64,000 nt of DNA from positions 62,001-126,000 of the forward strand of contig NZ_NMPZ01000007.1 in assembly GCF_002224675.1 (NCBI RefSeq), given 5' to 3'. Shown in pieces: positions 52,448 through 56,949 of this stretch. The position numbers were made by a program, and so were the translations under genes. Numbering within the stretch: position 1 is the stretch's first letter; every line of letters begins with the position of its first letter. Source of the stretch: Segatella copri (GTDB taxonomy: Bacteria; Bacteroidota; Bacteroidia; Bacteroidales; Bacteroidaceae). The notes under the pieces were generated by a model. That model ran no database searches. It saw nothing but the letters and a program-made list of their open reading frames with translations, and was not told the DNA's origin.

Positions 52448-52598
52448 TTGTCTGAGCATTGCCGGTAAATGTTCTTTCGAAATGATACGAATGCTGATAA
52501 AAATCTGCCAGTTTAGGGCTTTTTCTGATAAAAATCTGCTGAAAATCTGCTAAAAAGCAGAAAATATAAGGAAAATAAAGAAAAAACTGACAATTTGT

Positions 52599-52629
52599 TT
52601 GGTGGTATCAAAGAAAAGTGTTACTTTTG
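52599..52629 (+). promoter_or_regulatory. Promoter of the aromatic amino acid operon
   Basis: TTG at 52599-52601, a 20-bp spacer and TACTTTTG at 52622-52629. The leader to pheA is about 325 nt and contains the leader peptide and attenuator. Confidence 0.8.
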
Positions 52630-52732
52630 CAAACGAGTTGAGACTTTCATCGGTTGATGCTCCATCTGAGCTACTTCATTCTGAAGACTGATGGCTCAGC
52701 AATAAATGAATAACAAATAAAAGAATAAGAAA

Positions 52733-52822
52733 ATGGAAAAGTTGAACGCTTACTTTTTTAGCTATTACTTTTACTTTGCAAGCAATTGTAAAGCGGGAAG
52801 TTGCGTATATATTTCAACTTAG
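52733..52822 (+). CDS. Phe/Tyr-rich leader peptide of the aromatic operon
   Basis: The 29-residue ORF reads MEKLNAYFFSYYFYFASNCK and ends in VYIST with TAG. Eight of residues 7-15 are Phe or Tyr (4 Tyr, 4 Phe), exactly the amino acids made by the downstream genes. It lies between a consensus promoter and a terminator hairpin, the arrangement of pheL-type leaders that sense charged tRNA by ribosome stalling. There is no other reason for such a composition. Translation is inferred; no clear Shine-Dalgarno is seen, as is usual in Bacteroidota. Confidence 0.85.
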   Translation: MEKLNAYFFSYYFYFASNCKAGSCVYIST

Positions 52823-52859
52823 GATATAAGATTCTTGAAATCATCGAAACGGTCCCGCT
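52792..52859 (+). promoter_or_regulatory. Possible antiterminator pairing
   Basis: AGCGGGA (52792-52798), inside the leader peptide frame about 30 nt after the Phe/Tyr run, is complementary to TCCCGCT (52853-52859) in the first arm of the terminator. The two pairings cannot form together. AAGTTG (52798-52803) can also pair with CAACTT (52815-52820) and could block the antiterminator strand. Confidence 0.6.
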
Positions 52860-52884
52860 CTATTGTGAGCAGGACCGTTTTTCG
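52847..52884 (+). terminator. Attenuator terminator of the aromatic operon
   Basis: AAACGGTCC pairs with GGACCGTTT, continued by GCTC/GAGC past one mismatch, with a short loop and a T tract. It lies 25 nt past the leader peptide stop and about 75 nt before pheA. Confidence 0.88.
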
Positions 52885-52957
52885 TAAAACTCGAATCCGT
52901 TTTCCGAAAAATCCGTTTTCCAAAATCAGGAGATAATGTAAAAAAGAGAGTGAAACA

Positions 52958-53791
52958 ATGAAGAGAATTGCAATACAAGGAGAGTTGGGATCCTTCCACG
53001 ACATTACCGCCCACGAGTATTTCCAGGGCGAGCAGATAGAGTTAATCTGTTGCGCTACCTTCGAGGAGGTGTTTGAGAACATCAAGCGAGATCCTACCAT
53101 CATCGGCATCTGCGCCATCGAGAACACCATCGCCGGCAGTCTGCTCCACAACTACGAGCTGCTCCGGGAGAGCGGAACCACCGTGGTGGGTGAGCACAAG
53201 CTCCACATCGAGCACAGCATCTGCTGCCTGCCTTCCGACGACTGGAGCACCCTGCAGGAGGTTCACTCTCATCCTGTAGCGCTGATGCAGTGTGGCAAGT
53301 TTCTCGCCAACCATCCTGATCTCAAGGCGGTGGAGGCTGAGGATACCGCAGGTTCTGCCGCATTCATCGCCCAGCACCAGGTTCACGGATGGGCAGCCAT
53401 CTGTTCTGCCTACGCTGCCAGGATGTATGGCATGAAGGTACTGCAGGAGGGAATCCACGACAATCCGCACAACTACACCCGATTCCTCGTGGTCTGCAAT
53501 CCGCAGAAGGCCGCTCTTCTCCGACCTATCGAAAAGGCCAACAAGGCGAGCATCGTCTTCAGCCTTTCACACGACAAGGGTTCGCTCTCCAAGGTTCTCA
53601 CCATCCTGAGCTTCTACGACATCAATCTCACCAAGATCCAGTCGCTGCCAAGCATCGGTCATGAATGGGAATATCTCTTCTACGTGGATCTCACCTTCGA
53701 TAATCTGACCCGCTATCGCCAGAGCATCGATGCCATCACACCACTCGTGAAGAAACTCACGGTGCTGGGAGAATATGAGGAAAAAGAATAG
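52958..53791 (+). CDS. pheA: Prephenate dehydratase
   Basis: The enzyme makes phenylpyruvate from prephenate. The 277-residue protein has IAIQGELGSFHDITAHEYF, FENIKRDPTIIGICAIENT, and the active-site TRF motif in NPHNYTRFLVV. The C-terminal ACT domain reads FSLSHDKGSLSKVLTILSFY and KIQSLPSIGHEWEYLFYVDL. The usual Phe-binding motifs GALV and ESRP are GSLS and QSLP here. No chorismate mutase domain is fused; it is on the DAHP synthase. First gene after the attenuator. Confidence 0.95.
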   Translation: MKRIAIQGELGSFHDITAHEYFQGEQIELICCATFEEVFENIKRDPTIIGICAIENTIAGSLLHNYELLRESGTTVVGEHKLHIEHSICCLPSDDWSTLQEVHSHPVALMQCGKFLANHPDLKAVEAEDTAGSAAFIAQHQVHGWAAICSAYAARMYGMKVLQEGIHDNPHNYTRFLVVCNPQKAALLRPIEKANKASIVFSLSHDKGSLSKVLTILSFYDINLTKIQSLPSIGHEWEYLFYVDLTFDNLTRYRQSIDAITPLVKKLTVLGEYEEKE

Positions 53792-53819: not shown

Positions 53820-54989
53820 ATGATACAACCAGCCAATAGAGTAACAGAAATACAGGAATACTACTTCAGCCGTAAGCTGAAGGAAGTGGCTAAGCTTAAT
53901 GCCGAGGGACAGGACATCATCAGCCTCGCCATCGGAAGTCCAGACATGCCGCCTTCTAAGCAGACCATCGATACGCTCTGCGAGGTAGCCCATAACCCTG
54001 CTGCACACGGATATCAGCCTACGGTGGGCATCCCGGAGTTGCGCAAGGCGATGGCTGGTTATTACAAGAGATGGTATGACGTGGATCTTGACTGGGCTAC
54101 GGAAATCCAGCCCCTCATTGGTAGCAAGGAGGGTATCCTGCATGTTACGCTCGCCTTCTGCAACCCTGGCGACGAGGTGCTCATCCCAAACCCGGGCTAT
54201 CCTACCTATACTGCCATCAACAAGATTCTCGGCACCAAGATTACCTATTACGACCTGCGCGAGGACAATGAATGGCAGCCAGACTTCGAGGCGCTGGAGA
54301 AGATGGACCTCAGCCACGTGAAGCTGATGTGGACCAACTATCCGAACATGCCGACTGGAGGCGTGGCAAAGATGGAGACCTACGAGCGACTCGTGAAGTT
54401 TGCCAAGGACCACAACATCGTGGTGGTGAACGACAACCCTTATTCGCTCATCCTCAACGAGCATCCGCTGAGCATCATGCAGGTGCCTGGCGCCAAGGAC
54501 TGCTGCATCGAATTCAATTCGCTCAGCAAGAGCCACAACATGCCGGGATGGCGTGTGGCTATGATTTCGAGCAACAAGCAGTTTATCTCCTGGATCCTGA
54601 AGGTGAAGAGCAACATCGACAACGGATGCTTCCGCGGAATCCAGCTCGCTGCTGCCGAGGCCATGCTCAACAATACCGACGAGTGGCACCGTGAGAACAA
54701 CATCACCAACTATCGCCGCCGCCGCGACATCGCCGAGCAGATTATGCAGGTATTGGACTGCAAGTTTGATCCTAACCAGGTGGGCATGTTCCTCTGGGGC
54801 AAGATTCCTGAGAAATACGCCGATGTAGAAGACCTCACAGAGAAGATTCTCCACGAGGCGCGCGTATTCATCACCCCTGGATTCATCTTCGGAAGCAACG
54901 GCAAGCGATACATCCGCATCAGCCTTTGTGCCAAGGATGAGAAAATGAAGGAGGCGCTGGAAAGAATCAGAAAAGTCTTTGGAAAGTAA
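53820..54989 (+). CDS. Class I aminotransferase, probably aromatic/prephenate
   Basis: The 389-residue PLP enzyme has GYQPTVGIPELRKAMAGYYK, the cofactor loop IGSKEGILH, the NYPNMPTGGVA segment, the Asp/Tyr of NDNPYS, the lysine in NSLSKSHNMPGWRVAM and the late Arg in RYIRISLC. It resembles the LL-diaminopimelate/aspartate aminotransferase group. Its place between pheA and the DAHP synthase gene suggests transamination of phenylpyruvate, hydroxyphenylpyruvate or prephenate (inference). It starts 28 bp after pheA. Confidence 0.9.
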   Translation: MIQPANRVTEIQEYYFSRKLKEVAKLNAEGQDIISLAIGSPDMPPSKQTIDTLCEVAHNPAAHGYQPTVGIPELRKAMAGYYKRWYDVDLDWATEIQPLIGSKEGILHVTLAFCNPGDEVLIPNPGYPTYTAINKILGTKITYYDLREDNEWQPDFEALEKMDLSHVKLMWTNYPNMPTGGVAKMETYERLVKFAKDHNIVVVNDNPYSLILNEHPLSIMQVPGAKDCCIEFNSLSKSHNMPGWRVAMISSNKQFISWILKVKSNIDNGCFRGIQLAAAEAMLNNTDEWHRENNITNYRRRRDIAEQIMQVLDCKFDPNQVGMFLWGKIPEKYADVEDLTEKILHEARVFITPGFIFGSNGKRYIRISLCAKDEKMKEALERIRKVFGK

Positions 54990-55015: not shown

Positions 55016-56083
55016 ATGGAATTAGAATTAGAACCATTGAATCTCCCTAGTGATCAGGAACGCCCTATCGTCATTGCAGGCCCATGCTCTGCAGAGACTG
55101 AAGAGCAAGTTATGACTACCGCCAAGCAGCTGGCTGCTAAAGGCTGCCACATGTTCCGCGCTGGTGTATGGAAGCCACGTACCAAACCAGGAGGCTTCGA
55201 GGGAAATGGCGAGACTGCCTTGCCTTGGATGAAGCAGGTGAAGGAGGAGACCGGTATGCTCACTGCTACCGAGGTGGCTACTCCTGAGCACGTGGAGCTC
55301 GCCTTGAAATATGGAATCGATGTTCTGTGGGTGGGAGCCCGTACTTCTGCCAATCCATTCGCCATGCAGGCACTGGCAGACAGCCTTCAGGGCGTGGATG
55401 TTCCTGTGCTGGTGAAGAACCCGGTGAATCCGGATCTTGAGCTCTGGATCGGTGCGCTCCAGCGTATCAACCAGGCTGGTATCAAGCGACTCGGTGCCAT
55501 CCACCGCGGTTTCTCCAGCTTCGACAAGAAGATCTACCGCAATCTCCCTATGTGGCAGATTCCTATCGAGCTGCACCGCCGCATTCCTCAGTTGCCTATC
55601 ATCTGCGACCCTAGCCACATCGGCGGTCGCCGCGACCTCATCGCTCCTCTCTGCCAGCAGGCTATGGACCTGGGCTTCGACGGTCTGATCGTAGAGAGCC
55701 ACTGCTCTCCTGATGATGCATGGAGCGATGCCAAGCAGCAGGTTACTCCGGATATCCTGGATTACATCCTGAGCCTCCTCGTAGTTCGTGATGAACATTA
55801 TTCTACAGAGGGCCTGCATCAGCTGCGTGGTCAGATTGATGAGTGCGACAACCAGCTGATGGATCTTCTTGCCAAGCGTATGCGTGTATGCCGCGAAATC
55901 GGTACCTACAAGAAGGAGCACAATATGACAATCGTACAGACCAACCGCTACAACGAGATTCTCGAGAAGCGTGGTGCCCAGGCTTCACTCTGCGGAATGA
56001 GCCCAGAGTTTGCTGCCCAGATCTTTGAGCATATCCACGAGGAGAGTGTTCGCCAGCAGTTGGAAATCCTGAATCAGAAATAA
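55016..56083 (+). CDS. DAHP synthase / chorismate mutase fusion
   Basis: The 355-residue bifunctional protein starts the shikimate pathway and also converts chorismate to prephenate. The N-terminal type I-beta DAHP synthase (about 15-260) shows VIAGPCSAETEEQVMTTA, RAGVWKPRTKPGGFEG and the metal-binding CDPSHIGGRRDL and VESHCSPDDAWSDA. An AroQ chorismate mutase (about 265-355) follows: LHQLRGQIDECDNQLMDLLA, KRMRVCREIGTYKKEH and the final helix. The fusion places the mutase on the pathway's entry enzyme; it may serve as its feedback sensor. The gap from the aminotransferase is 26 bp. Confidence 0.94.
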   Translation: MELELEPLNLPSDQERPIVIAGPCSAETEEQVMTTAKQLAAKGCHMFRAGVWKPRTKPGGFEGNGETALPWMKQVKEETGMLTATEVATPEHVELALKYGIDVLWVGARTSANPFAMQALADSLQGVDVPVLVKNPVNPDLELWIGALQRINQAGIKRLGAIHRGFSSFDKKIYRNLPMWQIPIELHRRIPQLPIICDPSHIGGRRDLIAPLCQQAMDLGFDGLIVESHCSPDDAWSDAKQQVTPDILDYILSLLVVRDEHYSTEGLHQLRGQIDECDNQLMDLLAKRMRVCREIGTYKKEHNMTIVQTNRYNEILEKRGAQASLCGMSPEFAAQIFEHIHEESVRQQLEILNQK

Positions 56084-56148
56084 ATTAAGTGAAGAGTAGA
56101 GGACGAAAGACTTCGGCCTTCACTCTTCATTCTTCACATTATAAAGAA

Positions 56149-56949
56149 ATGAGAATTTTGATAATGGGAGCAGGTAAGATGGGAAGCTTTTTCATCGACC
56201 TGCTCAGCTTCGACCACGAGGTGGCTGTGTATGAAAAGGATGCCAAGCGACTGCGCTTCACCTATAACTGCTACCGTTTCACCAAGATGGAGGAGGTGGA
56301 GATGTTCCGCCCGGAACTCGTCATCAATGCCGTAACCGTGAAATACACCATCCCGGCATTCGAGGAGTTGCTGCCACATCTCTCTAAAGACTGTATCATC
56401 AGCGACATTGCGTCGGTGAAGACAGGATTGCAGGAGTTTTACGACAAGAGCGGCTTCCGATACGTGAGCACCCACCCGATGTTCGGTCCTACATTCGCCA
56501 ACCTGAACCAGCTCTCCGAGGAGAATGCGGTCATCATCAAGGAGGGCGACTATATGGGTAAGATTTTCTTCAAGGATCTCTATCAGAAGCTCGGACTGAG
56601 CCTGCATGAGTACACCTTTGATGAGCACGACCAGACGGTGGCTTACTCGCTGAGTATTCCATTTGTCAGCACTTTTGCCTTTGCGGCGGTGATGAAGCAT
56701 CAGGATGCTCCTGGTACCACCTTCAAGCGCCACATGCAGATAGCCAAGGGCGTATTGAACGAGGATGACTATCTCTTGCAGGAAATCCTCTTCAACCCAT
56801 ATACATCTGGACAGGTGGTCCAGATTCGCGAAGAGCTGGCTGAACTCATCGACATCATCGATCACAAGGATGCCAAGCGCATGAAACTCTTCCTCACCAA
56901 AATCAGAAATCATGTGAAGGAAGACATCGAAATCAAGCAGCAGAAATAG
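56149..56949 (+). CDS. tyrA: Prephenate dehydrogenase
   Basis: TyrA makes 4-hydroxyphenylpyruvate from prephenate. The 266-residue protein opens MRILIMGAGKMGSFFIDLLS, the NAD-binding site, and has DIASVKTGLQEFYDK and the conserved His in RYVSTHPMFGPTFANL. There is no ACT domain. The ATG at 56149 is used; the in-frame ATG at 56089 lies in a spacer with a partly palindromic GAAGAGT/ACTCTTC pair. The fourth gene of the operon. Confidence 0.94.
   Translation: MRILIMGAGKMGSFFIDLLSFDHEVAVYEKDAKRLRFTYNCYRFTKMEEVEMFRPELVINAVTVKYTIPAFEELLPHLSKDCIISDIASVKTGLQEFYDKSGFRYVSTHPMFGPTFANLNQLSEENAVIIKEGDYMGKIFFKDLYQKLGLSLHEYTFDEHDQTVAYSLSIPFVSTFAFAAVMKHQDAPGTTFKRHMQIAKGVLNEDDYLLQEILFNPYTSGQVVQIREELAELIDIIDHKDAKRMKLFLTKIRNHVKEDIEIKQQK

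Follow-up and report, generated by a model that had tools for sequence, protein, structure and literature searches.

A probable ribosome-mediated attenuator for phenylalanine and tyrosine synthesis upstream of pheA in Segatella copri, conserved in the class Bacteroidia

How does Segatella copri control the transcription of its genes for phenylalanine and tyrosine synthesis? In the window, which is the whole stretch of 64,000 nucleotides analysed here (contig NZ_NMPZ01000007.1, positions 62,001 to 126,000), these genes follow each other on the plus strand: pheA for prephenate dehydratase (52958-53791; Pfam PF00800, 1.7e-52, with an ACT domain match below Pfam's cut-off), a class I/II aminotransferase gene (53820-54989; PF00155, 9.6e-59), a gene for DAHP synthase fused to chorismate mutase (55016-56083; PF00793 and PF01817) and tyrA for prephenate dehydrogenase (56146-56949; PF02153, 3.4e-12). 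Pfam thereby confirms the gene order given in a sequence-only reading of this DNA, which had also proposed a ribosome-mediated attenuator for Phe/Tyr synthesis in front of the operon. This proposal is well supported by our computational analysis of the leader, the terminator, their conservation and their covariation. Leader and terminator are very probably a switch that turns the Phe/Tyr genes on when these amino acids are short, and we hold with high confidence, on the grounds of sequence comparison, that the switch would be a ribosome-mediated transcription attenuator which senses charged tRNA-Phe and tRNA-Tyr together.

The leader ORF (52733-52822, plus strand) has 29 codons and encodes MEKLNAYFFSYYFYFASNCKAGSCVYIST. 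Phe or Tyr occupies eight of the nine positions 7-15 (52751-52777, plus strand), exactly as the sequence-only reading had described it, and these codons are the putative sensor, called segment 1 in the following. The function of the operon matches the codons of the leader. Short ORFs of this length are common, the window containing 687 ATG ORFs of 10-60 amino acids on both strands, and one could imagine a plain intrinsic terminator accompanied by a chance ORF or by an ORF for a small functional protein. The composition of the leader is however outside chance: it is the only one of the 687 ORFs with at least seven Phe/Tyr per ten residues, its score of eight was reached by none of 5000 dinucleotide shuffles of 52599-52957, and among 2980 shuffled sequences of the 500 bp in front of pheA (loci L001-L150) just 2 came to a score of seven. 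Together with two findings described below, namely that the leader is linked to pheA throughout the class and that the sequence following the run co-varies with the terminator, this makes a chance ORF or small protein highly improbable. The leader peptide matched no family in Pfam or NCBIfam at E-values up to 1, searches in which HMMER is weak on very short peptides. A pattern of five Phe/Tyr codons searched across the own genome gave 137 sites versus 264 in the reversed control; it was uninformative alone and was dropped.

Upstream of the leader, TTTG (52598-52601), a 20-nt spacer and TACTTTTG (52622-52629, plus strand) fit TTTG/TAnnTTTG, which we take to be the -33/-7 promoter form of Bacteroidota, and the earlier claim of a consensus promoter in front of the leader ORF stands in this sense. 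The pattern TTTG-N18-22-TAnnTTTG was found upstream of leaders with terminator in 76 of 87 loci from the genus, 27 of 51 from the order and 12 of 35 from the class. Transcription would start near 52636, giving a 5' UTR of 97 nt before the leader (52636-52732) with a hairpin of -20.4 kcal/mol (z -1.48); in the genus comparison, made with those 60 of 87 loci in which a -7 box and over 20 nt are present, the median length was 22 nt and no structure was seen. The sole full-length match of this 5' UTR in the genome is the UTR itself, the next best being a partial match of 33 nt.

Between the leader and the first gene, pheA, an intrinsic terminator is located (52849-52882, plus strand), consisting of a hairpin (52849-52878) and T5 (52878-52882). 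Its letters are ACGGTCCCGCTC...GAGCAGGACCGT-TTTT and it folds with -19.4 kcal/mol. A generic scan for sigma-70 promoters and terminators reported neither the leader promoter nor the leader terminator; the former does not look like a sigma-70 promoter, and the terminator hairpin contains one internal C-A mismatch. The position of the terminator also bears on the idea of translational coupling or reinitiation, in which the leader would mainly feed ribosomes to pheA. In Bacteroidetes, according to PMC4833913, leader ORFs peak at a distance of 11-14 bp from the gene that follows, which would fit such a role, but here the leader stop lies 135 nt before pheA with the terminator in between, and we give coupling hardly any credit.

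The attenuator reading rests on a second pairing. Segment 2 (52790-52801, plus strand), located 3' of the aromatic run, is similar to the 3' arm of the terminator, and its pairing partner is the terminator's 5' arm. This shared strand, segment 3 (52851-52860, plus strand), can thus be paired either with segment 2 as antiterminator or with segment 4, the terminator 3' arm defined by folding and covariation (52867-52878, plus strand). The core of segment 2, AGCGGGA (52792-52798), is complementary to TCCCGCT (52853-52859), which bears out the alternative structure, mutually exclusive with the terminator, that had been noticed by eye. In the predicted fold of the complete window RNA the terminator wins. 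In classical attenuators the terminator likewise wins in the full RNA, and the antiterminator wins by being made first. A pairing of segments 1 and 2 was seen solely in folds of the window sequence.

From these elements the following course of events can be proposed. After the start of transcription a ribosome would translate the 29-codon leader; Bacteroidia hardly use Shine-Dalgarno sites. If Phe-tRNA or Tyr-tRNA is short, the ribosome would stall in codons 7-15 and segment 2, just ahead of it, would stay free and could pair with segment 3 before segment 4 exists. RNA polymerase would then read into pheA and the genes for the aminotransferase, DAHP synthase/chorismate mutase and TyrA. If both Phe and Tyr are plentiful, the ribosome would run on, segment 2 would be covered or re-paired with the codons of the run, and segments 3 and 4 would form the terminator, resulting in a short leader RNA of about 245 nt.

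To see how far these elements extend among relatives, we counted a short ORF not more than 450 bp away from pheA as an aromatic leader if a ten-residue stretch of it included at least six Phe, Tyr or Trp; kinship is given as assigned by the search tool. For the genus, 90 of the 163 genomes with PheA (200 searched) were examined, namely the 70 best and the last 20 listed, plus one genome from the order search. The order sample comprised 60 of 139 genomes with PheA (295 searched), mostly high-scoring, one of the 60 belonging to the same genus; the phylum sample comprised 60 of 257 (296 searched), spread over families, with 37 from the same class and 23 from other classes. In the genus, 90 of 91 pheA loci have an aromatic leader in front. 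The figures are 53 of 59 for the remainder of the order and 35 of 37 for the class outside this order, but only 3 of 23 for the other classes of the phylum. Among 80 named loci, which overlap partly with the others and are not independent of them, 79 have a leader with at least seven Phe/Tyr, the exception lying at a contig end with 140 bp upstream. The closest named relatives found are Segatella copri strains with PheA proteins 92-93% identical. Examples of leader peptides are MNKSYASFYYFYFYFARNCEAGSCV from the genus and MKNFNYAYYFFFYFYFSKK from other Bacteroidales. Leaders were missing upstream of pheA in L075, L106, L114, L119, L125, L150, L179 and L183, and in L136, where only 15 nt lie upstream. 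In the two class-level misses, L179 and L183, pheA is located 2 and 11 bp behind another ORF and is therefore not the first gene; neither is it in many loci from other classes.

A terminator was found for 87 of the 90 genus leaders; over all samples, none was recognised within 140 nt for L029, L041, L068, L093 and L126. A search without distance limit had taken remote hairpins for terminators in L110, L112, L113 and L126, and the limit of 140 nt was set later. The hairpin assigned to L173 is not convincing.

Leader ORF and alternative pairing are thus both found well beyond Prevotella/Segatella, the reverse of the lack of conservation that had been named as refuting the proposal, and the covariation analysis that had been suggested as a check gave a clear result at the level of families. 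With one genome per family (n=35), the cognate partners of segments 2 and 3 pair with -15.4 kcal/mol versus -10.9 kcal/mol (SD 0.45) for permuted partners, and none of 5000 permutations was as good. Both strands change between distant genomes, as in GGTGGGT/GCCCACC (L141), GACCGGGA/TCCCGGTC (L146), GAGCAGGA/TCCTGCTC (L122) and CGAGACTT/AAGTCTCG (L158). In the terminator set obtained without distance limit, from which the segment 2 spacing given below also derives, the duplex surpassed 95 or more of its 100 shuffled versions in 83 of 87 genus loci and 40 of 52 order loci; for 12 of the 52 order duplexes more than 5 of 100 shuffles were equally good. Within the genus we aligned the stretch from the run to the terminator for 50 of 85 distinct sequences (alignment A2), and scored structures that were derived from these same sequences. 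The antiterminator has 88.9% of its cells paired, compared with 41-50% in slid controls, and the terminator 83.2%, compared with 39-52%. Nine terminator pairs changed on both sides, as did five antiterminator pairs with eight cells. The number of pair types in the genus antiterminator did not exceed that of shuffles, 404 of 500 having as many, and was higher in one slid control; the covariation score was 0.086 versus 0.081 for the best slid control. This modest covariation in the genus is due to the high conservation of the strand.

A terminator with an alternative pairing is the output part of riboswitches and T-boxes too, and the leader RNA might thus bind a metabolite or uncharged tRNA directly, the ORF being incidental. 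We consider this very unlikely. The aromatic reading frame is conserved at the amino acid level, a third conserved domain is not visible in the aligned stretch from run to terminator (A2), and neither in the window leader nor in 16 pheA loci did any Rfam family come up to its threshold. A match to the T-box covariance model did not appear in these searches even at a permissive threshold. At this permissive threshold eight matches were obtained, all far below the gathering scores, and they were treated as chance.

An attenuator controlled by the ribosome should also have a fitting geometry. Segment 2 starts at a median of 12 nt (genus) and 14 nt (order) after the last aromatic codon, with a standard deviation of 2.9 nt in both, and its distance to the stop codon has standard deviations of 6.0 and 12.3 nt, respectively. 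Judged by the size of the ribosome footprint, a spacing of 12-14 nt is what a ribosome stalled in the run would need to leave segment 2 free. We modelled this situation in folds with the ribosome edge 11 nt after the run and the terminator 3' arm not yet made. At least five antiterminator pairs were predicted in 85 of 87 genus, 51 of 51 order and 34 of 35 class loci, on average 10.2, 9.3 and 7.7 pairs, compared with 6.2, 4.9 and 4.6 if segment 2 was shuffled; in such modelled folds the evidence lies in the excess over shuffles and not in the bare pair count. With the full RNA and a ribosome on the last aromatic codon, the terminator was at least 80% formed in only 70 of 87, 36 of 51 and 28 of 35 predicted folds (genus, order and class).

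Segment 2 would be masked by a ribosome that has reached the stop codon in 84 of 87 genus loci, where the overlap is half of the segment or more, in 44 of 51 order loci and in 25 of 35 class loci. This part of the attenuator reading does not hold for the window itself, where the footprint misses segment 2 owing to a shifted stop codon: it comes 12 nt later than in the Segatella copri relative L211, and a ribosome there would not cover segment 2. The leader of L211 ends with ...AGSCV-TAA; the window (52805-52822) reads TAT at this place and the frame continues for four codons. Either the pairing of segments 1 and 2 would take over this role, or basal readthrough would be higher here.

Classical attenuation with joint sensing of Phe and Tyr is the most likely function of the element. 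Of 176 leaders with terminator, 174 contain both residues in their run, and the genus runs mix synonymous codons (TTT 247, TTC 45, TAC 263, TAT 132), so the constraint on the run is one on the amino acid rather than on the base. An attenuator of the same translation-dependent kind could in practice answer to Phe alone, with the Tyr codons as neutral filler of similar shape, since Phe and Tyr codons are one base apart and drift between them is easy; two of the 176 runs (L108 and L123) have no Tyr in the ten-residue window. We think this unlikely. Tyr is commoner than Phe in the genus runs (394 versus 293 of 870 positions), a ribosome should be held up at the Tyr codons of the run each time Tyr-tRNA becomes scarce, and tyrA lies downstream in 71 of the 80 named loci, the other nine having less than 4.2 kb after the start of pheA. 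As to Phe codon choice, TTT is favoured in the genus runs, compared with 30 TTT and 70 TTC in eight genes of the window; here many species are set against one.

The candidate sensor for Phe and Tyr may be wider in some lineages. Trp codons were observed inside the Phe/Tyr run of L152, L153, L155, L156, L158, L163, L164, L178, L184 and L186, that is in 10 of 35 class leaders outside Bacteroidales, compared with none of the 51 leaders from the order (Fisher p 5e-5, kinship uncorrected). As a hypothesis, such runs would fit three-way aromatic sensing, with DAHP synthase controlled by all three products.

The genes downstream vary to a certain extent. In 20 loci from order and class with downstream DNA, picked among leader-bearing loci with and without Trp, tblastn found pheA and DAHP synthase/chorismate mutase in 20 of 20, the aminotransferase in 16 and tyrA in 12. 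An ORF between aminotransferase and DAHP synthase looks like tyrA in four further loci (L351, L353, L364 and L365), confirmed by Pfam in the first three. The remaining four loci carry genes of the common pathway in place of tyrA: EPSP synthase and chorismate synthase in L357 and L361 (Pfam for both) and in L363 (Pfam for EPSP synthase alone), and 3-dehydroquinate synthase and dehydratase in L350. In these four, the genes behind the unit of leader, pheA and DAHP synthase/chorismate mutase are of the aroA/aroC or aroB/aroD type, without aminotransferase and tyrA, which is an exchange of the operon under a conserved leader. We offer tentatively, as an idea that we are slightly more inclined to doubt than to accept, that a single ancestral multivalent aromatic attenuator (for Phe and Tyr, with Trp in many lineages outside Bacteroidales) could be the standard control of aromatic operons throughout Bacteroidia. 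It would have remained linked to pheA and DAHP synthase through exchanges of the other operon genes (tyrA branch or aroA/aroB/aroC common pathway), and such upkeep throughout the class would imply that the leading ribosome is kept near enough to RNA polymerase for attenuation to work.

Ribosome-mediated Phe attenuators are known from enterobacteria, where pheL-pheA and pheM-pheST have runs of mainly Phe. The element described here shares with them a leader peptide rich in codons of the product, alternating RNA segments and an intrinsic terminator in front of biosynthetic or synthetase genes. Unlike in these systems, the Segatella run alternates Phe and Tyr, and one operon contains both branches plus DAHP synthase. 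Multivalent leaders exist as well, ilvGMEDA responding to Ile, Val and Leu; the Segatella leader similarly combines codons of several end products of a shared pathway, but is aromatic and found in Bacteroidia. Vitreschak et al. reportedly predicted attenuators also in Bacteroidetes/Chlorobi in 2004, which may cover part of the present system. Rfam leader families, which presumably include the Phe, Leu/phe and Trp leaders, gave no match at the gathering threshold in the window leader or the 16 pheA loci.

The sequence-only reading knew of no described case in this group, and in the open-access papers searched we came across no account of Phe/Tyr leader peptides from Bacteroidota. Related elements have nevertheless been reported. 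The Bacteroid-trp motif (Rfam RF01692), whose name points to a leader of tryptophan genes, is among the probable cis-regulatory RNAs of Bacteroidetes in Table 1 of PMC2864571. It belongs to a different operon, and RF01692 was not matched by the window or the 16 pheA loci. For Flavobacterium psychrophilum, the accessible text of PMC9723704 describes clues to leader-peptide attenuation upstream of amino acid operons and a structured 5' element upstream of pheA, conserved in Flavobacteriaceae and without Rfam match, which, as far as this text goes, is very probably the same element. Peptide, codons and pairing do not appear in this text; our analysis adds to it how far the element extends through the class, the Phe/Tyr(/Trp) runs of its leaders and the evidence from covariation. 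Small ORFs reminiscent of attenuator leaders are mentioned for Bacteroides thetaiotaomicron in the accessible part of PMC7366714, and attenuation and leader peptides are unmentioned in that of PMC10994844. According to the accessible part of PMC2965389 (2010), leader-peptide systems had to its authors' knowledge been shown only in Proteobacteria and Actinobacteria before their own case from Firmicutes.

The putative attenuator is thus of a known mechanistic kind, absent from Rfam, Pfam and NCBIfam and class-wide in extent, a placement well supported by the sequence comparisons. For a major group of gut bacteria it provides a concrete example of termination under ribosome control that is widely conserved and open to experiment, makes transcription-translation coupling in Bacteroidota and the way in which they sense aromatic amino acids testable, and gives a motif for annotating leader peptides that are missing from the searched libraries.

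Leaders for his, trp, ilv and thr operons were also sought in 20 relatives, most thr flanks ending short of the gene start. A His run upstream of hisG was found neither in the own genome, nor in six other same-genus genomes, nor in L293, and no WWW ORF was seen for trpB in the own genome, where by eye trpB follows trpA. Short ORFs with WWW, for instance MTKTANFWWWRNSRFGQS, are located upstream of trpB in L371, L372 and L376 of the same genus, three loci that reached no Rfam threshold, and in other families upstream of trpB (L366) and trpE (L304, L305 and L307); to judge from their sequence these are likely trp attenuators. Upstream of hisG, His runs of up to HHHHHH were seen in short ORFs of L291, L292, L294 and L302, and upstream of ilvD Val/Leu/Ile runs in short ORFs of L315, L316, L320, L324 and L327, all of these loci coming from other families of the order.
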